DNA of 64,000 nt from Thermomicrobiales bacterium (lineage in GTDB: Bacteria > Chloroflexota > Chloroflexia > Thermomicrobiales > CADCWN01), in the NCBI GenBank assembly GCA_030446685.1, contig JAUJMV010000016.1, positions 1 to 64,000 of the forward strand, written 5' to 3'. How positions within the stretch are numbered: position 1 is the first letter of the stretch; every line of letters begins with the position of its first letter. Below, piece by piece: positions 4,701 through 40,643 of the stretch. Below the pieces are notes generated by a model. The model was not told the DNA's origin. It searched no databases and saw only the letters and a program-made list of their open reading frames with translations. The translations under genes were made by a program, and so were the position numbers.

Positions 4701-5001
4701 GTCGCCGTGGGAGACGTTGCTGCGGATCGTCGCCTCGCCGGTGCCGGCGTAGATCACGTTCGGGTCGGCCTCGGCCACCGCGAGCGCGCCGACCGCCGCC
4801 GTCCCGAACTGCCCATCCGAGATGTTCTCCCAGTGCGAGCCGCCGTTGGTCGTCTTCCAGACGCCCCCGGCGCAGGCCCCGAAGTAGAAGGTCCCCCGCT
4901 CGGTCGGGTGCCCGGCCACCGCCACGACCCGCCCGCCACGGTGCGGCCCGATCAGCCGCCACTCCAGCGATCGAAAGAGATTGGCCCCGTTCGCTTCCAC
5001 C
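1738..5001 (-). CDS. BNR/VPS10-like beta-propeller glycosyl hydrolase-type protein (one apparent frameshift near 2310)
   Basis: ORF 2217..5150 has repeated (S/R)TDGG.TW-type Asp-box motifs; the C-terminus continues in the 1738..4008 frame (YQVELAAGGETQTARFAVVPDPRLP...). Confidence 0.82.
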
Positions 5002-5130
5002 CGTCCCCACTCCTTCCCGTGACGCTCGCCGGCCGGCCGCGCGCCGCGTTCGCGCGCCGCGCCGCTGATTCTCAACGGCCCCGCCGCTCCTGTCAAAGGG
5101 CGGCGCGGGCCGGGCGGCGGGCGGGCTGGC

Positions 5131-5754
5131 TCAGACCAGCCCGTAGCCAAGCGCCAGCGCCGCGTGCTGTAGCGGCAGGAGGAGGGCCGGCGCCGCGAGC
5201 GGCTGGTGGAAGAAGGGGGCCGTCGGGAGGGCGGGCCGGGCGCGCTCGTAGAGGGCGACGGCCGGCGCGTTGCCGTGCATCGAGGAGCAGTACAGCAGGC
5301 CGTGGACCCCCGGATAGGCGGCGTAGATGGCGCGCGACCAGTGCTGGGCGCGGGGCCGCGGGCCGGAATTGATCGCCATCGAGGCGCCGGCGCGGGTCGG
5401 CCACAGGCCGGTCAGATCGAGCAGCAGCAGATCGGCCGCGGTGGCGAACCCGGCCAGCCAGGGGTCGCGGGCGGTCCGGTCGATCAGGCGCGTCTGCTGG
5501 AAGACTTCGGCCACGCAGGTCGGGCCGCGCGCCGCGTAGAGGATGCCGCGCTCCTGCGCCCGCGGCGGCGGCAGGTGGTGATCGAAGCGCGAACCGCGCA
5601 CGGGGCCGTAGGTGCGCCAGGTATGCCAGGCGGCGGCCCTCGCGCCGCCGCGGAAGTACACCCGCCACAGCTCGGTCCCGGCGGGCAGGGTCGCCAGGGC
5701 CGGGGCGATCCGCGCCAGTTCACCGATCGCCGGTGGCTGGGGGAACTTCGGCAT
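5131..5754 (-). CDS. RES-domain protein (NAD-degrading toxin family)
   Basis: 207 aa; ELWRVYF...GSRFDHH...GILYAARGPTCVAEVFQQTR matches RES R/E/S landmarks; directly downstream of an Xre/MbcA-ParS-like antitoxin. Confidence 0.8.
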   Translation of the reverse strand: MPKFPQPPAIGELARIAPALATLPAGTELWRVYFRGGARAAAWHTWRTYGPVRGSRFDHHLPPPRAQERGILYAARGPTCVAEVFQQTRLIDRTARDPWLAGFATAADLLLLDLTGLWPTRAGASMAINSGPRPRAQHWSRAIYAAYPGVHGLLYCSSMHGNAPAVALYERARPALPTAPFFHQPLAAPALLLPLQHAALALGYGLV

Positions 5755-15933: not shown

Positions 15934-16150
15934 AGCCCCCTTCGCCACGGCTCCACTCTTCCGCCCCCCTGTCCGATCCGCCAGGCCAGCCGTTGCCGGA
16001 CTCGCGCGGCCGACCTGTCCGCGCGTCCGATGGCGCGCGGCGACGGCCGGCGCATACTCGATAGGAGACAACGCAACTCGTGCCAGGCCCGGAAGACCGG
16101 CCGAGTTGCCACGACTGAACTGCTATCCATTCGAGAGGAGGACGGACACG

Positions 16151-16870
16151 ATGCGACAGACTGCCCTGATCACCGGCGCCTCGCGCGGCCTCGGGCTGGC
16201 CCTGGCCCGCCAACTCGCCGCGGACGGCTGGACCCTCATCCTCGACGCGCGTGGCGGGGAGGCGCTGGAGGACGCCCGCGCCGAACTCTCCCCGCTGACC
16301 GACGCGATCGCCATCCCCGGCGACGTGACCGACCCCGCGCACCGGGCGGCGCTGGCCGGGGCGGCGCGCCGGGTCGGCGGCCTGGATGCGGTCGTCAACA
16401 ACGCCAGCATCCTGGGGCCGAGCCCGCAGCCGGCCCTGCTCGACTACCCGCTCGACACGCTCGAAACCGTCTACCGCACCAACGTGATCGCGCCGCTGGC
16501 GCTGCTCCAGGCCGTGCGGCCGTCCCTGAAGCCGGGCGCGCGGATCGTCAACGTCACCAGCGACGCGGCGGTGGAGCCCTACGGTGGCTGGGGCGGCTAC
16601 GGGTCGAGCAAGGCCGCCCTGGAGCAACTCTCGAACATCCTCGCCGCCGAGCGGCCCGACCTCCGCGTCTACTGGGTCGATCCGGGCGACATGCGCACCC
16701 GGATGCACCAGGAAGCCTTCCCCGGCGAGGACATCAGCGACCGCCCGCTGCCCGAGACGAGCGTGCCCGGCTTCGTCGCGCTGCTGACCGGCGACCACCC
16801 CAGCGGGCGCTACGCCGCCCGCGCCCTGGCCCCCGAGCGCGCGGAACCGGTCGCCACGGCGGCGCGGTAA
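16151..16870 (+). CDS. SDR family oxidoreductase (copy 1)
   Basis: MRQTALITGASRGLGLALARQLA...NNASILG...YGSSKAALEQL. Confidence 0.92.
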   Translation: MRQTALITGASRGLGLALARQLAADGWTLILDARGGEALEDARAELSPLTDAIAIPGDVTDPAHRAALAGAARRVGGLDAVVNNASILGPSPQPALLDYPLDTLETVYRTNVIAPLALLQAVRPSLKPGARIVNVTSDAAVEPYGGWGGYGSSKAALEQLSNILAAERPDLRVYWVDPGDMRTRMHQEAFPGEDISDRPLPETSVPGFVALLTGDHPSGRYAARALAPERAEPVATAAR

Positions 16871-16940
16871 CGCTCTCAGGCCCAGCGGTCGCGCCTGGGC
16901 CGCCGCGCGCCACCGCGGGAGACACGGAAGGAGCAGCGAC

Positions 16941-17378
16941 ATGGCCGACGAACTTCTCGCCGCCGTCGAGCGCGAGGTGCTGGGCTGGCCCGGCGTCACC
17001 AGGACCCTGGCGCGGGGTGGCCCGGTCGAGGGCGGGTGGGTGATTCCGCCCGCCACCGTCTACAACCTCGGCCGGCGGCATCTCGGCCACATCCACGAAG
17101 GCGGCGTGGCCGACATCACCTTCCCCCGGGCGATCTGCGACGAACTGGTCGCGTCCGGGCGGGCCGAGCCGCACGGGGGCGGCTTACCGGGCGTCGTGAG
17201 CTATCGGCTCCGCGCCCCCGAAGACGTGCCGGGCGCCGTCGCGCTCTTCCGCCTGAGCTACGACCGCGCGCGGGCGTCCGCCGAGCGCCGCGGCACGGGC
17301 CCGGCGGGCGGAGCGCGCGCCCCGGAGGCCGCGCCGACACCCTGCCGCGATGCGGAACTGCACGAGGAGCTGTCATGA
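16941..17378 (+). CDS. DUF5519/luciferase-like family protein (copy 1)
   Basis: 145 aa; YNLGRRHLGHIHEGGVADITFPRAICDELVASGRAEPH. Confidence 0.7.
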   Translation: MADELLAAVEREVLGWPGVTRTLARGGPVEGGWVIPPATVYNLGRRHLGHIHEGGVADITFPRAICDELVASGRAEPHGGGLPGVVSYRLRAPEDVPGAVALFRLSYDRARASAERRGTGPAGGARAPEAAPTPCRDAELHEELS

Positions 17379-18490
17379 CCGCGATCCTGGACGATCCCAT
17401 CCCGCGCGCGACCAAGCACGCGACAGTGGGCCTCGGCCCGCTCGACTTCGAGCTGCCGCCGGACCTGGAGGCGGGCGAGCCGCCGGAGGCGCGCGGCCTG
17501 GCCCGCGACGCGGTGCGGCTGCTGGTCTCCCGGCGGTCCACCGACCGCGTCACCCACGCCCGGTTCCGCGACCTCGACCGCTTCCTCGCGCCCGGCGACC
17601 TCCTGGTGCTCAACACCAGCGGCACCCTCAACGCCGCCCTCCACGCCACCCGCGCGGACGGCGCCCCGCTCGAACTGCACCTCTCCACCCGGCTGCCGGC
17701 CGACCTCTGGTCCGTCGAGGTCCGCCGGCCGGGCGCCGGCGGCACGCAGCCATTCCGCCACGCTACGGGCGGCGAGACGCTGCGCCTCCCGGCGGGTGGG
17801 GCCGCGACCCTCCACACGCCCTACCGCCCGGACGAGCGGGCCGCGCCGGGGGTCGGCACACGGCTCTGGATCGCCACGCTGGACCTACCGGAATCGCTCG
17901 ACGACTACTTGAACCGCCACGGCTCCCCGATCCGCTACGGCTACGTCAAGGAGTCCTGGCCGCTCGCCTACTACCAGACCGTCTACGCCACCGAGGCGGG
18001 CAGCGCCGAGATGCCCTCCGCCGGCCGCGCCTTCACCCCGGAACTCCTGACCCGGCTGGTCGCGCGCGGCGTGGGGGTCGCGCCGCTGCTCCTGCACACC
18101 GGCGTCGCCAGCCTGGAGGATCACGAGCCCCCCTACGAAGAACCCTACCGCGTGCCGCTCGCCACGGCGCGGCTGGTCAACGCGACGCGGGCCGGCGGCG
18201 GGCGCGTCGTGGCGGTCGGCACGACGGTCGTGCGGGCGCTGGAGACCGTCACCGACGCGGCGGGGACGGCGCACCCCGGCGCGGGCTGGACCGGGCTCGT
18301 CATCACCCCGGAGCGCGGCCTGCGCGCGGTCGACGCGCTGCTGACCGGGCTGCACGAGCCGCGCGCCTCCCACCTGGCGATGCTCGAAGCCCTCGCCGGG
18401 CGCGACCACCTCCGCACCGTCTACGACGCCGCCCTGCGCGAACGCTACCTCTGGCACGAGTTCGGCGACCTCCACCTGCTCCTGCCGTAG
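17375..18490 (+). CDS. queA: S-adenosylmethionine:tRNA ribosyltransferase-isomerase-like (QueA family, copy 1)
   Basis: FRDLDRFLAPGDLLVLNTSGTLNAAL, HGSPIRYGYVKESWPLAYYQTVYATEAGSAEMPSAGRAFTPELL, LHEPRASHLAMLEALAG. Confidence 0.88.
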   Translation: MTAILDDPIPRATKHATVGLGPLDFELPPDLEAGEPPEARGLARDAVRLLVSRRSTDRVTHARFRDLDRFLAPGDLLVLNTSGTLNAALHATRADGAPLELHLSTRLPADLWSVEVRRPGAGGTQPFRHATGGETLRLPAGGAATLHTPYRPDERAAPGVGTRLWIATLDLPESLDDYLNRHGSPIRYGYVKESWPLAYYQTVYATEAGSAEMPSAGRAFTPELLTRLVARGVGVAPLLLHTGVASLEDHEPPYEEPYRVPLATARLVNATRAGGGRVVAVGTTVVRALETVTDAAGTAHPGAGWTGLVITPERGLRAVDALLTGLHEPRASHLAMLEALAGRDHLRTVYDAALRERYLWHEFGDLHLLLP

Positions 18491-18524
18491 CGACGCGCCA
18501 TGAATCCGCCCGGGGAGATGATGC

Positions 18525-18953
18525 ATGCAAATCACCAGCCTCCACCACAGCGCACTCGTCACCGCCGACCTCGCCCGCCTCCGCAACTTTTATGTCGAGA
18601 TCCTCGGCTTCCGCCCGATCGGCGGCTTCGCGGATCACAACATCCTCTTCCTCGCCGCCGGCGACCTGACGATCGAGATCGAGCAAGTGCAGGAAGTCGG
18701 CGGGCCGGCGCGCGGGCGCGGCTGGCACCACCTGGCGCTGGAAGTCGAGGATCTCGACGCGGCCTACGCCGAACTGACGGCGCGGGGCGTCCCGTTCCAG
18801 GCTCCACCCGCCGGCTTCCCCGCGGACGCGCCGCTGCTGCGGATCGCCTTCCTCACCGACCCCGACGGCAACCTGCTCGAACTGGTCCAGCCGCTCGGGC
18901 GCCGCTACCCACTCCTGCCACCCGCGATGGCCGCACCGGGCCCGCAACCCTGA
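18525..18953 (+). CDS. VOC (glyoxalase) family protein (copy 1)
   Basis: 142 aa; LHHSALVTADLARLRNFYVEILGFRPI...FLTDPDGNLLELVQP. Confidence 0.88.
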   Translation: MQITSLHHSALVTADLARLRNFYVEILGFRPIGGFADHNILFLAAGDLTIEIEQVQEVGGPARGRGWHHLALEVEDLDAAYAELTARGVPFQAPPAGFPADAPLLRIAFLTDPDGNLLELVQPLGRRYPLLPPAMAAPGPQP

Positions 18954-19200
18954 CGGCCCGCCCGTGGTACGTTTCTTCCGGCTCGGCGGTCATGCGCGAA
19001 GTGCTTCGGTGTCTCAGAAGGAATATCATGGAGTGGGGCATGGAGGGTGACCTGTGGCGGAGCCGGATCGACCCCCTCGGCCTGGACGAACTGCTCGCCG
19101 CGGCAGCGCCCGACGCCCCCGGCACATAGCGCAGCCGGCCGCCGCCCCCAGCCGGCCCCGCGCCGCCGGCCTCGACCACGCGCCGCGAGAGGAGGAGCGA

Positions 19201-20045
19201 TGCCCGCGTTTATCTGCGTCACCTGCGGCACCCAGTTCGCCCCCACCCCCGCCCCGCCCGCGCGCTGCCCGGTCTGCGAAGACGAGCGGCAATACGTCGG
19301 CCACGGGGGGCAGCAGTGGACGACCCCCGAGGAATTGCGCCGGGATCACCGCGCTGTCGTCAGGCCGATCGAGCCGGGCTTGACCGGCATCGGGGTGGAG
19401 CCGTCGTTCGCCATCGGGCAACGGGCGCTCCTCGTCCAGGCGCCGGGCGGCAACGTCCTCTGGGATTGCGTCAGCCTCCTCGACGACCCGACCGTCGCGG
19501 CGGTGCGCGCGCTCGGCGGGATCGCCGCCATCGCCATCTCCCATCCCCACTACTACGGGGCGATGGTCGAGTGGGCGCAGGCCTTCGACGCGCCGATCTT
19601 CCTGCACGAGGCCGAGCGCCCCTGGGTGCTGCGTCCCGACCCCCTCGTGCGGTTCTGGGACGGCGAGACGCGCGTGCTCGGCGCGGGGCTGACCCTGATC
19701 CGCTGCGGCGGGCACTTCCCCGGCGGGCAGGTCCTCCACTGGGCGGCGGGGGCCGCGGGGCGGGGGGCGCTGCTCACCGGCGACATCATCACCGTCGTCG
19801 CCGACCGCCGCCGGGTCAGCTTCATGTACAGCTACCCGAATCTGCTCCCGCTCCCCGCCGCGGCGGTGCGGCGGATCGCCGCGGCGGTCGCCCCCTTCCC
19901 CTTCGACCGCCTCTACGGCGCCTGGTGGGACCGCGTCGTGCCGGCCGACGGGGCGGGCGTCGTCCGCCGCTCCGCCGAGCGGTATGTCGCCATCCTGGGC
20001 GCGGACACGCCCCCCACGCCGTCCCCCGCGCCGGCCAACCCCTGA
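19201..20045 (+). CDS. MBL-fold metallo-hydrolase with N-terminal zinc-ribbon (copy 1)
   Basis: CVTCGTQFAPTPAPPARCPVCEDERQYV then MBL-like body ISHPHYYGAMVEWAQ...GGHFPGGQVLHW...LLTGDI. Confidence 0.8.
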
Positions 20046-20166
20046 TCGACACGCCCGAAACCGGGCGACGGCGGACCACCACCGCCGCGCCGCGTGCGGG
20101 ACCCGATCTGCTCTCCTCCACGGAGGGAGACCCGGCACGGTTTCGCGGATCGGAGGCGGGAACGGG

Positions 20167-21087
20167 GTGGCGAGCGGCTTGGACACCCGGCAAGTGCTGG
20201 AGTTGGTCTCCGCCGTCCTCGGCGCGGAACCGCTGGGGGCCGCGCACCTGCCCTTCGGCCACAGCAGCGTCAGCTACGACGTGGCGCTGCCGGGGCGGAA
20301 CGTGATCGTGCGCACCAACGCGCGGCCGGAGGTCTTCGCCAGGACCGGGCACAACCTCGCGATCCTCGCCGGGCTGGGGCTGCCGGTGCCGCGCCTGCTC
20401 GCCGCGGACCTGACCAAGTCGCGCTACCCCGCCGCCTACCTGATCCTCGACAAGATCCCGGGGCGCGACCTGCGCTACGAGCTCGCCGGCATGACCGCCG
20501 CGCAGATGACGCGGCTCGCCGGGTGGATCGTCGCCTTCCAGCGCCGCGTGGCGACCCTGCCGCCCGGCGCCGCCTTCGGCTGGGCGCCGATCGGCGGACG
20601 CGGCCCGTTCCCCTCCTGGGAGGGGCTGATCCGATCCGAGCTGCGCGGCCGCGCGGGCAGGCCCCAAGAGGCCGCCATCGCCGACCTGACCGCGCGCCTC
20701 GAACGGGCGCTGCCCCGGTTCGCGCCCCATTTCGCGGGGGTGCGGCCGGGGTGCTTCCTCGACGACGTGACGATCAAGAACGTGATCGTGCAGGCGGGCG
20801 AGCTTCAGGGGCTGATCGATTTCGACTGCGTCTGCTACGGCGACCCCCTGTACACGGTCGGCCTCACCGCAGCGGGCGTGGTCAGCGATGTCGGGCTGCA
20901 CGAACTGTTCTATGTCGAGGAACTGTGCCGCTGCTGGGGCCTGGACGGCCGGCATCGGCAGATCGTCGCCCTCTACTCGGCGCTGCATGCCCTCAACTTC
21001 CTGCGCCAGTTCACCGCCGGCGAGACCGCGGAGTGGACGCAGCGGATGGTCGAGGCTGCCCGGCAATGGCTGGCGCCGCTGGAGTAA
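20167..21087 (+). CDS. Aminoglycoside phosphotransferase (APH) family protein (copy 1)
   Basis: GHSSVSYDVALPGRNVIVRTN...GLPVPRLLAADL...LQGLIDFDCVCYGDPLYTVG. Confidence 0.85.
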   Translation: MASGLDTRQVLELVSAVLGAEPLGAAHLPFGHSSVSYDVALPGRNVIVRTNARPEVFARTGHNLAILAGLGLPVPRLLAADLTKSRYPAAYLILDKIPGRDLRYELAGMTAAQMTRLAGWIVAFQRRVATLPPGAAFGWAPIGGRGPFPSWEGLIRSELRGRAGRPQEAAIADLTARLERALPRFAPHFAGVRPGCFLDDVTIKNVIVQAGELQGLIDFDCVCYGDPLYTVGLTAAGVVSDVGLHELFYVEELCRCWGLDGRHRQIVALYSALHALNFLRQFTAGETAEWTQRMVEAARQWLAPLE

Positions 21088-21119
21088 CCCTTATCCTCCC
21101 CGGCGCGCCGACACCCCCG

Positions 21120-21231
21120 CCCTGTCATCCTGAGCGCAGCGAAGGATCGGTATCCCTGGCACCGGATGATGTCGTCCGCCACACGGGTGCCAGCGAAACC
21201 GATCCTTCGCTGCGGCTCAGGATGACAGGGC
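21120..21231. repeat. CHPERSEGS-type palindromic repeat (copy 1)
   Basis: cctgtcatcctgagcgcagcgaaggatcggt ... accgatccttcgctgcggctcaggatgacagg; inner arms ctggcacc / gggtgccag. Confidence 0.85.
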
Positions 21232-21359
21232 AGGGGTCTGCGCCTGCCTGGGAGATACGGGCTGGTTTCGGCCGTCCACCGCGCCCTTTCCATTACTGCC
21301 GGCCGCCCGCGGAACGGATTGGCGGGGAGCGATGACCGGCGCTCGGGGAAGATGGGCGG

Positions 21360-22298
21360 CTACGGGCGCTGCCCGATCACTTGCTGGAACCGCTCGCAGG
21401 CCCGGCCCCAGGCGTCGGGGTCCGCGGGATGATAGGTCGCCGGCGGGAACGAGGCCGCGACCAGCCGCCGGCCCTCCCCCAGATCGGCGAGCTGGCCGAG
21501 GGCGAGCAGTTGCAGCAGCAGGTTGCCGATCGCCGTCGCCTCCTCCGGCCCGGCCCAGACCGGGCGGCCGAGCGCGTCCGCCGTCCACTGGCAGAGCAGC
21601 CCGTTCCGCGCGCCGCCGCCGACCAGGTGCAGCCCCGCGAAGCGCGTCCCGACCAGCCCCTCGATCCGCTCCAGCACCGCGCGATGCTTGAGCGCCAGGC
21701 TCTCGAGCGCGCAGCGCAGCACCGCGCCGTCGTCCCCCGGCGCCGGCTGGCCGGTGCGGCGGCAGAACTCGCGGATCGCGCGCGGCATGTCCGGCGGGTT
21801 GACGAACGCCGGGTCGTCGGGGTCGATGGCCGCGGCGAAGGGGGGCGCGGCGGCGGCGAGCGCCAGGTCGTCCTCGTGCGAACGGGACTGCCCGTCGCGC
21901 GCCCAGGCGCGGCGGCACTCCTGCACGATCCAGAGGCCGGTCATGTTCTTCAGCAGCCGGAAGGTCCCGCCCGCGCCGATCTCGTTGGTCACGTTCTCCG
22001 CCAGCGCCCGCTCCGTGATCACCGGCGCGGCGACCTCGGTCCCGACCAGCGACCAGGTGCCGCAGCTCAGGTAGGCGAACGGCCGGTCGGCGGCGGGGGC
22101 CGGCCCCGCCCCCCCCGCCGGGGCGGGGGCGGGGGCCGCGCCCCCGGCGCCCCGGGCCGCGGCCCGCCCCGGCTCCACGCGCACCGCCGGGAGGCTCGCG
22201 CCGGCCGGCGTCCCCCGCGCGCCCCCCCGGACGTCCAGGGCGCCGGGCCACCCCCCCCCCCCGCGCCGGTCGCGGGCCCCGTCAATCGTGAACGGGCT
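21360..22298 (-). pseudogene. 3' fragment of rhamnulokinase, cut at the repeat border (copy 1)
   Basis: FAYLSCGTWSLVGTE...GGGARNGLLCQWTADALGRPV; lacks the N-terminal half present next to copy 2. Confidence 0.85.
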
Positions 22299-23187: not shown

Positions 23188-23498
23188 AGCATCCCCCCAC
23201 GGCCGCGATAATGCCGGAACTGCTCAAGGACATCAGGTAATGGGGCACCCACTCGATGGTACGCTATGGACGCGCTGACAGCCACAAAATACAAGATGCT
23301 CTAGCACAATAATCCCCTGTCCGATCCGCCAGGCCAGCCGTTGCCGGACTCGCGCGGCCGACCTGTCCGCGCGTCCGATGGCGCGCGGCGACGGCCGGCG
23401 CATACTCGATAGGAGACAACGCAACTCGTGCCAGGCCCGGAAGACCGGCCGAGTTGCCACGACTGAACTGCTATCCATTCGAGAGGAGGACGGACACG

Positions 23499-24218
23499 AT
23501 GCGACAGACTGCCCTGATCACCGGCGCCTCGCGCGGCCTCGGGCTGGCCCTGGCCCGCCAACTCGCCGCGGACGGCTGGACCCTCATCCTCGACGCGCGT
23601 GGCGGGGAGGCGCTGGAGGACGCCCGCGCCGAACTCTCCCCGCTGACCGACGCGATCGCCATCCCCGGCGACGTGACCGACCCCGCGCACCGGGCGGCGC
23701 TGGCCGGGGCGGCGCGCCGGGTCGGCGGCCTGGATGCGGTCGTCAACAACGCCAGCATCCTGGGGCCGAGCCCGCAGCCGGCCCTGCTCGACTACCCGCT
23801 CGACACGCTCGAAACCGTCTACCGCACCAACGTGATCGCGCCGCTGGCGCTGCTCCAGGCCGTGCGGCCGTCCCTGAAGCCGGGCGCGCGGATCGTCAAC
23901 GTCACCAGCGACGCGGCGGTGGAGCCCTACGGTGGCTGGGGCGGCTACGGGTCGAGCAAGGCCGCCCTGGAGCAACTCTCGAACATCCTCGCCGCCGAGC
24001 GGCCCGACCTCCGCGTCTACTGGGTCGATCCGGGCGACATGCGCACCCGGATGCACCAGGAAGCCTTCCCCGGCGAGGACATCAGCGACCGCCCGCTGCC
24101 CGAGACGAGCGTGCCCGGCTTCGTCGCGCTGCTGACCGGCGACCACCCCAGCGGGCGCTACGCCGCCCGCGCCCTGGCCCCCGAGCGCGCGGAACCGGTC
24201 GCCACGGCGGCGCGGTAA
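23499..24218 (+). CDS. SDR family oxidoreductase (copy 2)
   Basis: Same translation as 16151..16870. Confidence 0.92.
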   Translation: MRQTALITGASRGLGLALARQLAADGWTLILDARGGEALEDARAELSPLTDAIAIPGDVTDPAHRAALAGAARRVGGLDAVVNNASILGPSPQPALLDYPLDTLETVYRTNVIAPLALLQAVRPSLKPGARIVNVTSDAAVEPYGGWGGYGSSKAALEQLSNILAAERPDLRVYWVDPGDMRTRMHQEAFPGEDISDRPLPETSVPGFVALLTGDHPSGRYAARALAPERAEPVATAAR

Positions 24219-24288
24219 CGCTCTCAGGCCCAGCGGTCGCGCCTGGGCCGCCGCGCGCCACCGCGGGAGACACGGAAGGAGCAGCGAC

Positions 24289-24726
24289 ATGGCCGACGAA
24301 CTTCTCGCCGCCGTCGAGCGCGAGGTGCTGGGCTGGCCCGGCGTCACCAGGACCCTGGCGCGGGGTGGCCCGGTCGAGGGCGGGTGGGTGATTCCGCCCG
24401 CCACCGTCTACAACCTCGGCCGGCGGCATCTCGGCCACATCCACGAAGGCGGCGTGGCCGACATCACCTTCCCCCGGGCGATCTGCGACGAACTGGTCGC
24501 GTCCGGGCGGGCCGAGCCGCACGGGGGCGGCTTACCGGGCGTCGTGAGCTATCGGCTCCGCGCCCCCGAAGACGTGCCGGGCGCCGTCGCGCTCTTCCGC
24601 CTGAGCTACGACCGCGCGCGGGCGTCCGCCGAGCGCCGCGGCACGGGCCCGGCGGGCGGAGCGCGCGCCCCGGAGGCCGCGCCGACACCCTGCCGCGATG
24701 CGGAACTGCACGAGGAGCTGTCATGA
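24289..24726 (+). CDS. DUF5519/luciferase-like family protein (copy 2)
   Basis: Same translation as 16941..17378. Confidence 0.7.
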   Translation: MADELLAAVEREVLGWPGVTRTLARGGPVEGGWVIPPATVYNLGRRHLGHIHEGGVADITFPRAICDELVASGRAEPHGGGLPGVVSYRLRAPEDVPGAVALFRLSYDRARASAERRGTGPAGGARAPEAAPTPCRDAELHEELS

Positions 24727-25838
24727 CCGCGATCCTGGACGATCCCATCCCGCGCGCGACCAAGCACGCGACAGTGGGCCTCGGCCCGCTCGACTTCGAG
24801 CTGCCGCCGGACCTGGAGGCGGGCGAGCCGCCGGAGGCGCGCGGCCTGGCCCGCGACGCGGTGCGGCTGCTGGTCTCCCGGCGGTCCACCGACCGCGTCA
24901 CCCACGCCCGGTTCCGCGACCTCGACCGCTTCCTCGCGCCCGGCGACCTCCTGGTGCTCAACACCAGCGGCACCCTCAACGCCGCCCTCCACGCCACCCG
25001 CGCGGACGGCGCCCCGCTCGAACTGCACCTCTCCACCCGGCTGCCGGCCGACCTCTGGTCCGTCGAGGTCCGCCGGCCGGGCGCCGGCGGCACGCAGCCA
25101 TTCCGCCACGCTACGGGCGGCGAGACGCTGCGCCTCCCGGCGGGTGGGGCCGCGACCCTCCACACGCCCTACCGCCCGGACGAGCGGGCCGCGCCGGGGG
25201 TCGGCACACGGCTCTGGATCGCCACGCTGGACCTACCGGAATCGCTCGACGACTACTTGAACCGCCACGGCTCCCCGATCCGCTACGGCTACGTCAAGGA
25301 GTCCTGGCCGCTCGCCTACTACCAGACCGTCTACGCCACCGAGGCGGGCAGCGCCGAGATGCCCTCCGCCGGCCGCGCCTTCACCCCGGAACTCCTGACC
25401 CGGCTGGTCGCGCGCGGCGTGGGGGTCGCGCCGCTGCTCCTGCACACCGGCGTCGCCAGCCTGGAGGATCACGAGCCCCCCTACGAAGAACCCTACCGCG
25501 TGCCGCTCGCCACGGCGCGGCTGGTCAACGCGACGCGGGCCGGCGGCGGGCGCGTCGTGGCGGTCGGCACGACGGTCGTGCGGGCGCTGGAGACCGTCAC
25601 CGACGCGGCGGGGACGGCGCACCCCGGCGCGGGCTGGACCGGGCTCGTCATCACCCCGGAGCGCGGCCTGCGCGCGGTCGACGCGCTGCTGACCGGGCTG
25701 CACGAGCCGCGCGCCTCCCACCTGGCGATGCTCGAAGCCCTCGCCGGGCGCGACCACCTCCGCACCGTCTACGACGCCGCCCTGCGCGAACGCTACCTCT
25801 GGCACGAGTTCGGCGACCTCCACCTGCTCCTGCCGTAG
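24723..25838 (+). CDS. queA: QueA-like protein (copy 2)
   Basis: Same translation as 17375..18490. Confidence 0.88.
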   Translation: MTAILDDPIPRATKHATVGLGPLDFELPPDLEAGEPPEARGLARDAVRLLVSRRSTDRVTHARFRDLDRFLAPGDLLVLNTSGTLNAALHATRADGAPLELHLSTRLPADLWSVEVRRPGAGGTQPFRHATGGETLRLPAGGAATLHTPYRPDERAAPGVGTRLWIATLDLPESLDDYLNRHGSPIRYGYVKESWPLAYYQTVYATEAGSAEMPSAGRAFTPELLTRLVARGVGVAPLLLHTGVASLEDHEPPYEEPYRVPLATARLVNATRAGGGRVVAVGTTVVRALETVTDAAGTAHPGAGWTGLVITPERGLRAVDALLTGLHEPRASHLAMLEALAGRDHLRTVYDAALRERYLWHEFGDLHLLLP

Positions 25839-25872
25839 CGACGCGCCATGAATCCGCCCGGGGAGATGATGC

Positions 25873-26301
25873 ATGCAAATCACCAGCCTCCACCACAGCG
25901 CACTCGTCACCGCCGACCTCGCCCGCCTCCGCAACTTTTATGTCGAGATCCTCGGCTTCCGCCCGATCGGCGGCTTCGCGGATCACAACATCCTCTTCCT
26001 CGCCGCCGGCGACCTGACGATCGAGATCGAGCAAGTGCAGGAAGTCGGCGGGCCGGCGCGCGGGCGCGGCTGGCACCACCTGGCGCTGGAAGTCGAGGAT
26101 CTCGACGCGGCCTACGCCGAACTGACGGCGCGGGGCGTCCCGTTCCAGGCTCCACCCGCCGGCTTCCCCGCGGACGCGCCGCTGCTGCGGATCGCCTTCC
26201 TCACCGACCCCGACGGCAACCTGCTCGAACTGGTCCAGCCGCTCGGGCGCCGCTACCCACTCCTGCCACCCGCGATGGCCGCACCGGGCCCGCAACCCTG
26301 A
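25873..26301 (+). CDS. VOC family protein (copy 2)
   Basis: Same translation as 18525..18953. Confidence 0.88.
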   Translation: MQITSLHHSALVTADLARLRNFYVEILGFRPIGGFADHNILFLAAGDLTIEIEQVQEVGGPARGRGWHHLALEVEDLDAAYAELTARGVPFQAPPAGFPADAPLLRIAFLTDPDGNLLELVQPLGRRYPLLPPAMAAPGPQP

Positions 26302-26548
26302 CGGCCCGCCCGTGGTACGTTTCTTCCGGCTCGGCGGTCATGCGCGAAGTGCTTCGGTGTCTCAGAAGGAATATCATGGAGTGGGGCATGGAGGGTGACC
26401 TGTGGCGGAGCCGGATCGACCCCCTCGGCCTGGACGAACTGCTCGCCGCGGCAGCGCCCGACGCCCCCGGCACATAGCGCAGCCGGCCGCCGCCCCCAGC
26501 CGGCCCCGCGCCGCCGGCCTCGACCACGCGCCGCGAGAGGAGGAGCGA

Positions 26549-27393
26549 TGCCCGCGTTTATCTGCGTCACCTGCGGCACCCAGTTCGCCCCCACCCCCGC
26601 CCCGCCCGCGCGCTGCCCGGTCTGCGAAGACGAGCGGCAATACGTCGGCCACGGGGGGCAGCAGTGGACGACCCCCGAGGAATTGCGCCGGGATCACCGC
26701 GCTGTCGTCAGGCCGATCGAGCCGGGCTTGACCGGCATCGGGGTGGAGCCGTCGTTCGCCATCGGGCAACGGGCGCTCCTCGTCCAGGCGCCGGGCGGCA
26801 ACGTCCTCTGGGATTGCGTCAGCCTCCTCGACGACCCGACCGTCGCGGCGGTGCGCGCGCTCGGCGGGATCGCCGCCATCGCCATCTCCCATCCCCACTA
26901 CTACGGGGCGATGGTCGAGTGGGCGCAGGCCTTCGACGCGCCGATCTTCCTGCACGAGGCCGAGCGCCCCTGGGTGCTGCGTCCCGACCCCCTCGTGCGG
27001 TTCTGGGACGGCGAGACGCGCGTGCTCGGCGCGGGGCTGACCCTGATCCGCTGCGGCGGGCACTTCCCCGGCGGGCAGGTCCTCCACTGGGCGGCGGGGG
27101 CCGCGGGGCGGGGGGCGCTGCTCACCGGCGACATCATCACCGTCGTCGCCGACCGCCGCCGGGTCAGCTTCATGTACAGCTACCCGAATCTGCTCCCGCT
27201 CCCCGCCGCGGCGGTGCGGCGGATCGCCGCGGCGGTCGCCCCCTTCCCCTTCGACCGCCTCTACGGCGCCTGGTGGGACCGCGTCGTGCCGGCCGACGGG
27301 GCGGGCGTCGTCCGCCGCTCCGCCGAGCGGTATGTCGCCATCCTGGGCGCGGACACGCCCCCCACGCCGTCCCCCGCGCCGGCCAACCCCTGA
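26549..27393 (+). CDS. MBL-fold metallo-hydrolase with zinc-ribbon (copy 2)
   Basis: Same translation as 19201..20045. Confidence 0.8.
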
Positions 27394-27514
27394 TCGACAC
27401 GCCCGAAACCGGGCGACGGCGGACCACCACCGCCGCGCCGCGTGCGGGACCCGATCTGCTCTCCTCCACGGAGGGAGACCCGGCACGGTTTCGCGGATCG
27501 GAGGCGGGAACGGG

Positions 27515-28435
27515 GTGGCGAGCGGCTTGGACACCCGGCAAGTGCTGGAGTTGGTCTCCGCCGTCCTCGGCGCGGAACCGCTGGGGGCCGCGCACCTGCC
27601 CTTCGGCCACAGCAGCGTCAGCTACGACGTGGCGCTGCCGGGGCGGAACGTGATCGTGCGCACCAACGCGCGGCCGGAGGTCTTCGCCAGGACCGGGCAC
27701 AACCTCGCGATCCTCGCCGGGCTGGGGCTGCCGGTGCCGCGCCTGCTCGCCGCGGACCTGACCAAGTCGCGCTACCCCGCCGCCTACCTGATCCTCGACA
27801 AGATCCCGGGGCGCGACCTGCGCTACGAGCTCGCCGGCATGACCGCCGCGCAGATGACGCGGCTCGCCGGGTGGATCGTCGCCTTCCAGCGCCGCGTGGC
27901 GACCCTGCCGCCCGGCGCCGCCTTCGGCTGGGCGCCGATCGGCGGACGCGGCCCGTTCCCCTCCTGGGAGGGGCTGATCCGATCCGAGCTGCGCGGCCGC
28001 GCGGGCAGGCCCCAAGAGGCCGCCATCGCCGACCTGACCGCGCGCCTCGAACGGGCGCTGCCCCGGTTCGCGCCCCATTTCGCGGGGGTGCGGCCGGGGT
28101 GCTTCCTCGACGACGTGACGATCAAGAACGTGATCGTGCAGGCGGGCGAGCTTCAGGGGCTGATCGATTTCGACTGCGTCTGCTACGGCGACCCCCTGTA
28201 CACGGTCGGCCTCACCGCAGCGGGCGTGGTCAGCGATGTCGGGCTGCACGAACTGTTCTATGTCGAGGAACTGTGCCGCTGCTGGGGCCTGGACGGCCGG
28301 CATCGGCAGATCGTCGCCCTCTACTCGGCGCTGCATGCCCTCAACTTCCTGCGCCAGTTCACCGCCGGCGAGACCGCGGAGTGGACGCAGCGGATGGTCG
28401 AGGCTGCCCGGCAATGGCTGGCGCCGCTGGAGTAA
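27515..28435 (+). CDS. APH family protein (copy 2)
   Basis: Same translation as 20167..21087. Confidence 0.85.
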   Translation: MASGLDTRQVLELVSAVLGAEPLGAAHLPFGHSSVSYDVALPGRNVIVRTNARPEVFARTGHNLAILAGLGLPVPRLLAADLTKSRYPAAYLILDKIPGRDLRYELAGMTAAQMTRLAGWIVAFQRRVATLPPGAAFGWAPIGGRGPFPSWEGLIRSELRGRAGRPQEAAIADLTARLERALPRFAPHFAGVRPGCFLDDVTIKNVIVQAGELQGLIDFDCVCYGDPLYTVGLTAAGVVSDVGLHELFYVEELCRCWGLDGRHRQIVALYSALHALNFLRQFTAGETAEWTQRMVEAARQWLAPLE

Positions 28436-28467
28436 CCCTTATCCTCCCCGGCGCGCCGACACCCCCG

Positions 28468-28579
28468 CCCTGTCATCCTGAGCGCAGCGAAGGATCGGTA
28501 TCCCTGGCACCGGATGATGTCGTCCGCCACACGGGTGCCAGCGAAACCGATCCTTCGCTGCGGCTCAGGATGACAGGGC
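28468..28579. repeat. CHPERSEGS-type palindromic repeat (copy 2)
   Basis: Offset copy of 21120-21231. Confidence 0.85.
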
Positions 28580-28707
28580 AGGGGTCTGCGCCTGCCTGGG
28601 AGATACGGGCTGGTTTCGGCCGTCCACCGCGCCCTTTCCATTACTGCCGGCCGCCCGCGGAACGGATTGGCGGGGAGCGATGACCGGCGCTCGGGGAAGA
28701 TGGGCGG

Positions 28708-30219
28708 CTACGGGCGCTGCCCGATCACTTGCTGGAACCGCTCGCAGGCCCGGCCCCAGGCGTCGGGGTCCGCGGGATGATAGGTCGCCGGCGGGAACGA
28801 GGCCGCGACCAGCCGCCGGCCCTCCCCCAGATCGGCGAGCTGGCCGAGGGCGAGCAGTTGCAGCAGCAGGTTGCCGATCGCCGTCGCCTCCTCCGGCCCG
28901 GCCCAGACCGGGCGGCCGAGCGCGTCCGCCGTCCACTGGCAGAGCAGCCCGTTCCGCGCGCCGCCGCCGACCAGGTGCAGCCCCGCGAAGCGCGTCCCGA
29001 CCAGCCCCTCGATCCGCTCCAGCACCGCGCGATGCTTGAGCGCCAGGCTCTCGAGCGCGCAGCGCAGCACCGCGCCGTCGTCCCCCGGCGCCGGCTGGCC
29101 GGTGCGGCGGCAGAACTCGCGGATCGCGCGCGGCATGTCCGGCGGGTTGACGAACGCCGGGTCGTCGGGGTCGATGGCCGCGGCGAAGGGGGGCGCGGCG
29201 GCGGCGAGCGCCAGGTCGTCCTCGTGCGAACGGGACTGCCCGTCGCGCGCCCAGGCGCGGCGGCACTCCTGCACGATCCAGAGGCCGGTCATGTTCTTCA
29301 GCAGCCGGAAGGTCCCGCCCGCGCCGATCTCGTTGGTCACGTTCTCCGCCAGCGCCCGCTCCGTGATCACCGGCGCGGCGACCTCGGTCCCGACCAGCGA
29401 CCAGGTGCCGCAGCTCAGGTAGGCGAACGGCCGGTCGGCGGCGGGGGCCGGCCCCGCCCCCCCCGCCGGGGCGGGGGCGGGGGCCGCGCCCCCGGCGCCC
29501 CGGGCCGCGGCCCGCCCCGGCTCCACGCGCACCGCCGGGAGGCTCGCGCCGGCCGGCGTCCCCCGCGCGCCCCCCCGGACGTCCAGGGCGCCGGGCCACC
29601 CCCCCCCCCCGCGCCGGTCGCGGGCCCCGTCAATCGTGAACGGGCTGAAACACTGCGTCGTCGAGGCGTTGGTCCGCTCGCCGTGCCGCTCGCCGGTCAG
29701 GAAGTAGCGCAGCAGATCGGGATCATCAGCAACGACCGGGCCGCGTCGAGCAGGGGCGAATCCGCCGCCTTGAGCGCGTGGAGCTGGTAGAGGGTATTGA
29801 AGGGCAGCATCTGGATGCCGGTGCGCGCGAAGACCTCCGCGCGCGGCGCCACCGCCCAGACCCGCTCCATCGCCCCGGCGGTGTGCGGGTCGCGGTAGTG
29901 GTAGGGGTTGCCGAGCAGTTCCCCGTGCCGCCCCAGCAGCCCGAAGTCCACCGCCCAGGAGTCGAGGCCGACCGAGGCGAGGCCGCCGTAGGCCCGCCGC
30001 GCCGCCGCCAGCCCCCTTGACTTCGTGCAGCAGGCGCAGGATGTCCCAGTGCAGGCGGTCGCGGGCGCGCACCGGATCGTTCGGGAAGCGCCCCACCTCC
30101 TCGACCACGAGCCGCCGGCCCGCCCCGCCGCCCGTCAGCCGCCCCGCGACCGCGCGCCCGCCGCTCGCCCCCAGGTCGAAGGCCAGCGCCGGCGGCGGAC
30201 CCGCGGCGCCGGGGGTCAC
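28708..30219 (-). CDS. rhaB: Rhamnulokinase (FGGY family), several frameshifts
   Basis: PPPALAFDLGASGGRAVAGRL; VDFGLLGRHGELLGNPYHYRD, TGIQMLPFNTLYQLHAL; DLLRYFLTGERHGERTNASTTQ; FAYLSCGTWSLVGTE; GTG start overlaps the rhaI TGA (gtga). Confidence 0.82.
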   Translation of the reverse strand: MTPGAAGPPPALAFDLGASGGRAVAGRLTGGGAGRRLVVEEVGRFPNDPVRARDRLHWDILRLLHEVKGAGGGAAGLRRPRLGRPRLLGGGLRAAGAARGTARQPLPLPRPAHRRGDGAGLGGGAARGGLRAHRHPDAALQYPLPAPRAQGGGFAPARRGPVVADDPDLLRYFLTGERHGERTNASTTQCFSPFTIDGARDRRGGGGWPGALDVRGGARGTPAGASLPAVRVEPGRAAARGAGGAAPAPAPAGGAGPAPAADRPFAYLSCGTWSLVGTEVAAPVITERALAENVTNEIGAGGTFRLLKNMTGLWIVQECRRAWARDGQSRSHEDDLALAAAAPPFAAAIDPDDPAFVNPPDMPRAIREFCRRTGQPAPGDDGAVLRCALESLALKHRAVLERIEGLVGTRFAGLHLVGGGARNGLLCQWTADALGRPVWAGPEEATAIGNLLLQLLALGQLADLGEGRRLVAASFPPATYHPADPDAWGRACERFQQVIGQRP

Positions 30220-36259: not shown

Positions 36260-36882
36260 GTGAGCGAGACAGACCGCTGGCCGACCGGATCGATCGTCGT
36301 CCAGCAAGAAGTCTGGCAAGGCCGCCTCTGGTCGGCGCGCCCGATGACGGTGGTCGCCGATCGCGGATTCCCTGGCCCTGGTGCCCGCGAGGCACGCGCT
36401 GGAAGACCGCCACGACCCCGCCGACCCGGCCGCGCGCCCCGACCAGGGCCGAGCGCTTCGTGCTGTCGCTCGCGCGCCCCGATTGATCCTCGCCGACTTC
36501 ACCTGGGATGTCTCGACGCTGGTGCTCGTGCGGGCCGGCGACTGGCACGCCGTCTGGGTCTGCTGGGATGACCGCGGGCGCGGGCTGGTACGTCAACTCC
36601 AGCGGCCGTTCCGCCGGACGGGGGCGGAGCCTGCACACGATGGACCTGATGCTCGACATCGCCGCTGACCGCCGCTGGCGCTGGAAGGACGAGGACGAAT
36701 TCGCCGCCCTGATCACCGCCGGCCTCATCGACAGCGCCGAGGCGGCGCGGTGCGCGCCGAGGCAAACCGCGTCATCGCGCGCGTGGAGGCGCACGAACCG
36801 CCATTCAGCGAACCCTGGCATGACTGGCGACCCTGACCCCTGGTCATTGCCCGAACTCCCCGCGGGCTGGGACCGGCTCTGA
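36260..36882 (+). CDS. DUF402 family protein, frameshifted
   Basis: GSIVVQQEVWQGRLWSARPMTVVADRG; WHAVWVCWDDRGRG WYVN; DLMLDIAADRRWRWKDEDEFAALITAGLIDSAEAA. Confidence 0.75.
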
Positions 36883-37939
36883 TGAAGCTGGCAAAGCTAT
36901 GACCTATTCAAGCTTTCTGATAGAGCAGAACGCCAGAAGGGCAACATGATGTTCAATTGGCAATATATGTCACAATATGTGGTAAGGCTTGTATACAGAT
37001 GTAGAGTGGTGGGGCGTGCAGCGTGCCTTTGATCTCCCTTGAAAGTCCTCTTTACTTGCTGAGGAGGCTATATGCGTATCCAGAGCTTTCGCATCGAGCC
37101 TCCCGCAACTTGCGTCTCGCGGAGTGTTCTAATGCGCCAGACTTCATGGTTATCTGTGGGGAACGGGTGCGGTAAGAGTGCAATCCCTCAATGCGTTGAT
37201 GACGGCAAAGAACACGCTGGCAGTTACGGTAGCTTTGAGTTTGATCCGAGAGCAGTTGCCGCTGATGCCGCTGAAGGCGATGGTCTCAATGACGCTTGCT
37301 TACACTGGGAGGCGGAGCGAGGATACGTTAGAGCGCGTTTCGGTCATTTATGCCCAGAAACAGATGAAGTTGTCATAGAGATCCAACCAGGGGGTAATGG
37401 ACGGGTTGTCAGAATATCCTACCAGGGATTTGCTGAGTTCGTTTTCCCGAGCCTACTTGGACCCGGTTTCTTCGATTACATGGATGCATATCGTCAATCA
37501 CCGAAGCAGCAACTGAGTACCTGGGATGCCAACGTCCTCAACGAATCTCAGACCAAGACTACGCCCATGCCGCTGGCCTTCAAGTTCAATACACCAAGCA
37601 ATACTTAGCGGCTATAAGAAAGATGCGCGACCTACAAATCGTTCAGCAGGCGTGGCGTTCCGGAAGGCGGAGGTCGAGGGTTTAGATTCTCTACAAGAAG
37701 TTAGACAATTCTTCGATAGTTTCTTCGCTCCCATGAGGTTTGTGGATGTGAACCTGGACAAATCCCTTTCGAGTTCATCATTTCGACTCCTCGTGGCATG
37801 ATCGATATCGATGATTTGAGCGCGGGCGAAAAGGAAATACTCAATGTCTTCGTACGCTTTCATCAACTCAAACCCAAGGACGCAATTATCCTGTTCGACG
37901 AGGCGGATGCACATTTGCACCCCGATTTGGAGCGTAGGT

Positions 37940-39391
37940 CTGACATCCGGACGTAACTCAGGTGCTGGCCGGGTGCCCGAGCAACGCGGCGAGGCGTGGT
38001 GGGAGCCCGCCGTGTTGGCGGATCTCCTCGGTCAGGAGCGCCTCGGTCGCCAGGTGGTCCAGCAGGCCGCAGCCCGCGCGTGAGCACGAGCTTGCCGGGC
38101 GGGCGGTTGGCCCGCCATTCGCCCCCGCCGAGCCGGGTCAGCAGGCGCACCTCGGCCCTCCAGCGTGACGCCGGGGAAACCGGAAGCCCGCCGCCACCCA
38201 GCCGAGCGCCACCAGCGTGCGCACCGCCGCGAGCGCGAGCACCTGCACGCCTTCCCAGCCGAGGCATTGTTTCCCGATCTTGAAGGCGTCCTCGATGCTC
38301 CAGCGTTGCCGGTACATCCGGAAGATTTCGGTCGCCTCCTCGGCGCTCGTCACCGGCCGGTCGGTGAGGAGCCTGGGAACTCCTCGTGCGCCCCCTCCAA
38401 CCGCACCTCCACCAGCAGACTTGCCGCTCGTGCTGCGCCCCGTCCGGCCGGGTGCGCACCTCCTCCTGATAGGTGACGACGAGCGGCGCGGCGACGACCG
38501 CCGGCACCGGCTGGAACCCCAGGACGGGCCTGCTGCCCCTTGCGCACCACCATCTCGGTCGCGACGCGCGCCAGCGGCTGCAACCGCGGCGCCAGGTCGG
38601 CCAGGTGGACCGGCTGGTCGGCCACCGGGCGCACCAGCCGGTCGCGGTGCTGCACCCGGCCGACCAGGTGGTGCCCCTGCCCCCACCCCGCCGCCCAGAC
38701 GGCGACGTCGTCGAAGCCCGCGTCCATGATGTAGGTGACCTCGGCGGCGAGCAGGGCGAGAGCGCCGCCGCCGCCGACGGAGGCGAGGCGGCCTGCGTCT
38801 CGGCCGACTCGCTCAGGAAGCCGTCCGCCGCGCTGCTGAACAGGCGGTGATACAACAGCCCCCGGCGCGCCCGCCCGACCCCGATGGCGTTGAGGGTTCG
38901 ATAGCCGGGCACCGTCCCCGGCCCAGCCAGGCGCTTGACGCGCTGGAGCGCCTCCATCTCCTGGGCGTGCGGCTTGCGCAGGTCCGACCCGTCCAGCAAC
39001 ACCCAGATGGCGCCCTCGCCGCGCAGTTGCTCGACCCCGCGCGCTTGCAGCCGGCCGATCAGGTGGTCGGCGTCGAGGGTGGAGCGTTTCGTCGTCTCAG
39101 CATGCACCAGCCGCCGCACCCGCCGCTCGCCGTGCGGCGTCGCCGCCAGCACAGGGGAAAAGGCCGCGATGCGGCTGCAACACAGGCTCTCCGCCCCGAT
39201 GATCCGTCTCACCCAGGAGGGTGCGAGTGCGCCGTCCCCGGTCAAGCCCGCGAACTCCCCCAGGTATGCGCCGAACAGGTCCTGCTCCGCCACCGTCAAC
39301 TCCATCGTTCCCCCTCCCCTTCGGAGATCACACCCCGCACCCACCGCGCCGGCCCCGGTTGTACCACACCCCAGTTACGTCCGGATGTCAG
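37940..39391 (-). mobile_element. IS4-family insertion sequence (1,452 bp)
   Basis: Perfect 19-bp TIRs ctgacatccggacgtaact (37940-37958) / agttacgtccggatgtcag (39373-39391); 6-bp TSD GTAGGT at 37934-37939 and 39392-39397. Confidence 0.95.
38130..39305 (-). CDS. IS4-family transposase (frameshifted in this sequence; 3' end approximate)
   Basis: MELTVAEQDLFGAYLGEFAGLTGDG...IWVLLDGSDLRKPHAQEME; YIMDAGFDDVAVWAAG; YRQRWSIEDAFKIGKQCLGWEG matches Y-(2)-R-(3)-E-(6)-K exactly. Confidence 0.88.
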
Positions 39392-40643
39392 GTAGGTACC
39401 TTGACGCGCTACGGGCCATCGGTATGGGTAATCAACTCTGGTTGACCACCCACTCTCCCGAGATGATGATTGCAGCAGGTAGCGAATCTCTGTATACGGT
39501 GCTCAAGGAGCCGCCGGCGGACGGTGGGAGTCAGTTCGTCCGCGTGACTCAGAACGAGCAACTACATACCGTCTTGTCAGAGGTGATGGGTTCGCGAGGG
39601 ATCGTGAGCTTCAATCAACGTGTCGTATTTATTGAAGGGGAAGACGCATCCGCCGACCGGATGATTTATGAGGCGGCGTATCCGCCCGGTTTGTACAACG
39701 TAAGCTTCGTCCCGGCTGGGAATTCCGCAACGGCGAGGAAAACGGCGGAGCGGGTGAACGAGTTGCTCTCGACATCCATAGGCTTCCAGCAGTACTACAG
39801 TATTGTTGATGGAGATATTGACCGTTCGAACCCGATCCAACTGGGGGAGCGCGATTGTTCAAGTTGCCAGTGTACCATGTAGAGAACTTGCTCCTCAATT
39901 CAGGCGAAATTCTTGAAGCAACCCAGGCGCTGCTTGGACCACAATGCCCTTTTAGGACTCCGACCGATGTAGAGAATGCCCTACGAAGATGCGTCCTGTC
40001 AGACCGTCATGTAAAGCCCTTCACAAAAGCCTTGCTCGATGCGCGTCTCGCTGCAATCGCCAAGGCAGCTTACGATGATGTCTACAAGCGGCAGACCCAT
40101 GTAACTTCTGAACTAACGCTGCCTACGTTCACTGAGATGGAGTCGGAGGCCAGGGCTGCCTTGCAAGTTGCGTTGAGCGACGGGACGTGGACGGCGAGGT
40201 GTAAGGGTCGAGATGTGCTTAGGGCGTATTGCAATGAGGTTGGCCTAGCATACGAACATCTTCGTAACCTTCTTATCTCCCGTATAAACACCCCCCCCAA
40301 AGCTCTTGCAGACATCATGGATAGAATCCTTGGCAGCAACTAGCAACGCTGGGGGCTGACGACTCCGTCTATGCTCCCCCATTGCCTCATCGATGATGGT
40401 GCGCATGCTGCCCAGTCCGCAGTGGGGTGTCGCCGGAAGCGAGCGGGGCGGGGGATGGGCAGATAGGATGTCCGGCGAACAGACGTTTCGCGGGGGTTTC
40501 TGCTTATCCCCCACACACGTTGACGCGCGGCGATGGCGGTCCCTATACTTGCCGGACGTCTACGCGACAGTCCGGGCAGGCGACCCCGGCAATTGTGCCG
40601 TCCCGCCGCCCGTCGCCACGCCTGGAAGGGGAAACGGATCGCG

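Follow-up and report, generated by a model that had tools for sequence, protein, structure and literature searches.

Results

An insertion sequence within a putative defense gene

The window, by which we mean the whole 64,000-nucleotide stretch of DNA analyzed here, contains a putative defense gene that is split in two by an insertion sequence (IS). The element has terminal inverted repeats (TIRs) and is flanked by a target site duplication (TSD). The features of the locus are:

37,072-37,939, plus strand: 5' part of the host gene, AriA-like ABC ATPase, from the start to just past Walker B (GC 0.51)
37,934-37,939: left TSD copy, GTAGGT (6 bp)
37,940-39,391, minus strand: insertion sequence of 1,452 bp, with its transposase antiparallel to the host gene (GC 0.73; window 0.72)
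37,940-37,958: left TIR, CTGACATCCGGACGTAACT (19 bp)
37,954-37,956, plus strand: TAA in the left TIR, in frame with and ending the upstream host frame (...LERRSDIRT*)
37,958-39,305, minus strand: DDE transposase reading frame with YRQRWSIEDAFKIGK, corresponding to Y(2)R(3)E(6)K
39,373-39,391: right TIR, the reverse complement of the left TIR (19 bp)
39,385-39,387, plus strand: ATG lying within the right TIR and sharing the frame of the 3' host fragment (MSGRYLDAL...), a candidate start
39,392-39,397: right TSD copy, GTAGGT (6 bp)
39,392-40,343, plus strand: 3' part of the host gene, the remainder of the ATPase plus a Toprim/DUF4435 domain, AriB-like (GC 0.54)

The two TIRs match at 19 of 19 bases, and the likeness between the ends of the element stops past base 19. 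A perfect 19-bp inverted pair lying at most 3 kb apart would be expected by chance about 7e-4 times in 64 kb. With a 6-bp direct repeat added, the expectation falls to about 2e-7, and chance is therefore excluded. The element plus one copy of GTAGGT amounts to 1,458 bp (3 x 486), and once these are removed the flanks share one frame (...AHLHPDLERRYLDALRAIGMGNQLWLTTHSPEMM), with ...ILFDEADAHLHPDLERR on the left of the joint running directly into YLDALRAIGMGNQLWLTTHSPEMM on the right. The sequence-only reading had described a precise insertion between the Walker B and H-loop motifs of a putative defense gene, the deletion of which would restore the frame. Its coordinates are exact to the base, and both the site and the restored frame were borne out. 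It had also called the insertion recent; the event is recent-looking, with the perfect TIRs and TSD forming the whole basis for that description.

Identity of the host gene

The 5' part of the host gene carries the motifs GNGCGKS, LSAGEKE, and ILFDEADAHLHPDLERR, and it aligns, with several frame changes, to residues 1-291 of an intact homologue (L051). In the 3' part, which has a single frame change near 39,833, we found the H-loop TTHSPE and the Toprim motifs EGED, VDGDID, and VYHVEN. The ABC-ATPase motifs present in the window (GNGCGKS, LSAGEKE, ILFDEADAHLH, and TTHSPE) are invariant in 22 homologues, and the Toprim acidic residues E371, D429, and D431 are likewise invariant among homologues. 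When the joined downstream part was compared with the PADLOC models, AriAB was the best match (E 2.3e-47), above PtuA and others. Just upstream of the host gene lies a DUF402 gene (36,260-36,882), which is also frame-changed.

If the two parts once formed a single gene, homologues should carry the joined sequence, as the earlier reading had implied, and they do. Among 85,462 species genomes scanned, five close homologues were found (L051-L055; 58-61% identity in the best segment). Four of them (L051-L054) are uninterrupted, about 604 aa long, and continue across the IS site. Distant plasmid homologues are continuous there as well. Three intact homologues were tested in full, and AriAB was the best PADLOC model for each (1e-72 to 6e-76); AAA_21 and AAA_15 scored above the cut-off in intact homologues. 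AriA was found by profile search at 1e-10. A search for E. coli ariA DNA that started from part of the solved AriA chain returned only remote plasmid and phage relatives. The AF2 model of L051 (pLDDT 79.5) has a fold that matches chains of OLD nuclease, PtuA, and GajA, with AriA not among the best 50 fold matches. In this model, the insertion site falls within a helix (residues 286-299 of the model) that follows Walker B and precedes the strand leading to the H-loop. Around the host gene, no synteny was found with a genome of the same family (G001). Upstream of the intact homologue in L051 (824-1957) is a gene that appears to encode a DUF1016/YhcG-type nuclease. Nucleases of this type often occur near defense genes.

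PARIS systems respond to an anti-restriction protein by cleaving tRNA and halting growth. PARIS is already known in a single-gene form, in which AriA and AriB are fused (PMC9122126), and AriB is a Toprim tRNase (PMC12409363). Like that fusion, the host gene appears to combine an AAA_15/AAA_21 ABC ATPase and a DUF4435/Toprim domain in one gene. Unlike it, DUF4435 scores at or just under the Pfam cut-off (at the C-terminal end of the intact homologues, E 5e-6 to 6e-5 and 23.3-26.9 bits, the cut-off being 27), similarity to the solved AriA is remote, and the gene here is split by an IS. Because the L051 model matches OLD, PtuA, and GajA rather than AriA among its best 50 matches, “PARIS-like”, an identity founded on profiles, is the furthest label that we apply to this probable fusion.

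Family of the insertion sequence

The element appears to belong to the IS4/IS701/IS1634 superfamily. Several of its features are shared with the IS4 family and its IS50-type members: the length of 1,452 bp, the Y(2)R(3)E(6)K signature in the window, and, in an intact relative from another genome (L039), D-D-E spacers of 88 and 145, which lie within the IS4 pattern D(60-110)D(100-150)E. The ends begin with 5'-CT as in IS50. Of the seven conserved IS50 end positions given in PMC2266710, the element keeps 6, and seven relatives keep 6 or 7 in their ends. However, TSDs of the IS4 family measure 7-13 bp, about one helix turn, and those of IS50 8-9 bp (PMC2266710), whereas the present element has a TSD of 6 bp and L039 one of 7 bp (CACTCTA). 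The NCBIfam IS4 models also miss their cut-offs, the best for L039 being NF033590 (81.8 bits, with a cut-off of 160). IS701, ISH3, and IS1634 are characterized by a broken YREK and a TSD of 4-6 bp; TSD length alone fits IS1634, but YREK is complete here. Since family TSDs are longer and the NCBIfam cut-offs were not reached, we describe the element as IS4-like and refrain from assigning it to IS4. A 67%-identical relative on another contig of the same genome (C87) has the ends CTGAGATCCGTGCATAACT and no TSD. No donor was found: viral contigs lacked the exact TIR, and plasmids yielded no near match to the IS.

Frame changes around the insertion

The sequence-only reading spoke of a clean insertion that inactivates the gene. 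The insertion is precise, but the phrase presumes a gene that is otherwise intact, and frame-aware alignment to L051 and L054 showed that, the IS apart, the host gene contains 8-10 frame changes. The transposase has about 5 in the assembly. Because of these changes, Pfam searches on the raw window frames of both genes returned almost nothing. The lesions in the host gene could mean that it was a decaying pseudogene before the insertion, so that the IS landed, as a neutral passenger, in DNA that was no longer functional. However, housekeeping neighbors are similarly dense in frame changes. Compared with orthologues in G001, FabF has 7, NAD kinase 2, and a hydroxyacid reductase 6; the pooled neighbor rate, with a flippase included (counted as 2), is 3.7 per kb. 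Neither the host gene (Poisson P 0.15-0.37) nor the transposase (P 0.55) rises above this rate. Of the 31 frame switches that a codon-usage HMM called in the window, almost all are at 30-45.2 kb; there are none across rpoB/rpoC, and the HMM called none in 23 kb of G001 coding DNA. The breaks end outside 30-45 kb. When the host gene, transposase, FabF, NAD kinase, and reductase are taken together, all of the approximately 29 lesions are frame changes, and no nonsense substitution is among them. The host gene also still has its key motifs and remains about 59% identical to remote homologues. Prior decay is an unlikely explanation, and we set it aside on the strength of the local lesion pattern and the absent nonsense codons.

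Because the pattern is local, nonsense codons are absent, and rpoB/rpoC are intact, the frame changes at approximately 30-45 kb most likely reflect a poorly polished, indel-rich consensus rather than decay, and could in part be true decay. An IS with exact ends and an exact TSD is not a consensus error. Given an indel-rich patch, whether the host gene was intact before the insertion cannot be read from the assembly. The window also contains an exact 6,333-bp direct repeat (15,966-22,298 and 23,314-29,646; offset 7,348), with a pentapeptide-repeat gene in the 1,015-bp spacer between the copies. This repeat may be a true duplication or an assembly artefact.

Insertion sequences in other AriAB-type genes

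Our census comprised 77 loci covering at least 80% of an AriAB-type query, or about 67 distinct loci without duplicate copies. Two of these approximately 67 other loci also carry an IS, bringing the total with the window to 3 of about 68:

L055 (Planctomycetota, close homologue), 2696-4000: IS256-family IS, 9-bp TSD AACCAACTC, joint in frame
L116 (Tianweitania populi, isolate), 4231-5549: IS3-family IS, 5-bp TSD GTTGG, joint in frame

The first is 14 codons away from the position that corresponds to the window's site, and the second is just past the H-loop. In L051 numbering, the three sites correspond to residues 291, 305, and 320, a span of at most 85 bp in a gene of 1,809 bp (nominal P 0.0064 under uniform placement, calculated post hoc on three cases). 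Searches for more AriAB genes in 392 Planctomycetota, and then in 398 and 399 further genomes, found very few. One of them, L208, carries a large internal in-frame gap instead of an IS: its AriAB gene (1504-2217) is down to the two ends, with query residues of approximately 115-533 missing.

Since the clustering was noticed after the fact and on three cases, we treat it as a lead only. A stronger claim would be that fused AriAB genes are repeatedly and independently struck between Walker B and the H-loop by unrelated IS families: selection would favor carriers that lose a system which is costly or self-damaging, and a hit there would leave an ATPase stub that lacks the effector and does no harm. 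At present, we find this quite improbable.

Discussion

The observations at this locus are, in our judgment, very probably explained by the transposition of an IS into a PARIS-like AriAB gene, truncating its product. A complete DDE element with IS50-like ends would have entered the gene by cut-and-paste or similar transposition, and from the continuity of the homologues across the site we infer insertion into the gene rather than ancestral presence of the element. The target would have been a horizontally acquired, single-gene PARIS-like system of lower GC (0.51 and 0.54 in its two parts vs 0.73 in the IS), pairing an ABC-ATPase sensor with a Toprim tRNase-type effector. Six bases (GTAGGT) would have been duplicated within the codons following Walker B. 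A ribosome translating the host gene would then reach the TAA 15-17 bases into the element, and the predicted protein would be cut to the ATPase core, without the H-loop and the Toprim domain, so that defense should be abolished. In E. coli PARIS, losing either gene abolished defense without toxicity (PMC9122126), and a null host gene is thus the likely result here by analogy. It is possible that the ATG in the right TIR serves as the start of an orphan Toprim fragment.

The sequence-only reading had also proposed loss of selection, cost relief, or a strain-level on/off polymorphism. The first two are possible causes. For the third, precise excision would have to restore the defense gene in part of the population; the in-frame joint and perfect TSD would permit this, but the same is true of every recent IS insertion that has a TSD. 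The exact IS is present as a single copy in the assembly, and no empty-site allele from the same species or genus came to light. With no evidence of such a polymorphism found, we consider it very improbable. It is hardly credible that the joint is an assembly artefact, such as unrelated molecules misjoined in a badly polished patch that starts approximately 0.4 kb past the second copy of the exact 6.3-kb repeat, since misjoining does not give rise to perfect TIRs together with a TSD and a joint that is in frame and agrees with homologues. The insertion could, however, derive from a minority strain or from one long read filling the patch.

Transposition of the IS into the PARIS-like gene, the reading that we favor, is a fresh instance of a known phenomenon, the inactivation of defense genes by IS elements. 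Natural IS insertions have been reported in cas genes, and those of IS1 and IS10 in 12 other kinds of defense cluster (PMC10359306). The non-CRISPR survey in that study dealt with IS1 and IS10, unlike the present IS.

For those working with this assembly, a warning follows: frame breaks in the 30-45 kb stretch should not be taken as biology. The locus itself offers, from an uncultured lineage, a verified case of an IS-broken defense gene; this gene is identified as a PARIS-like AriAB, and the empty site is proven through relatives. Should the clustering of insertions by three unrelated IS elements be borne out in a larger sample, the cost of carrying such an effector would become measurable from genomes.
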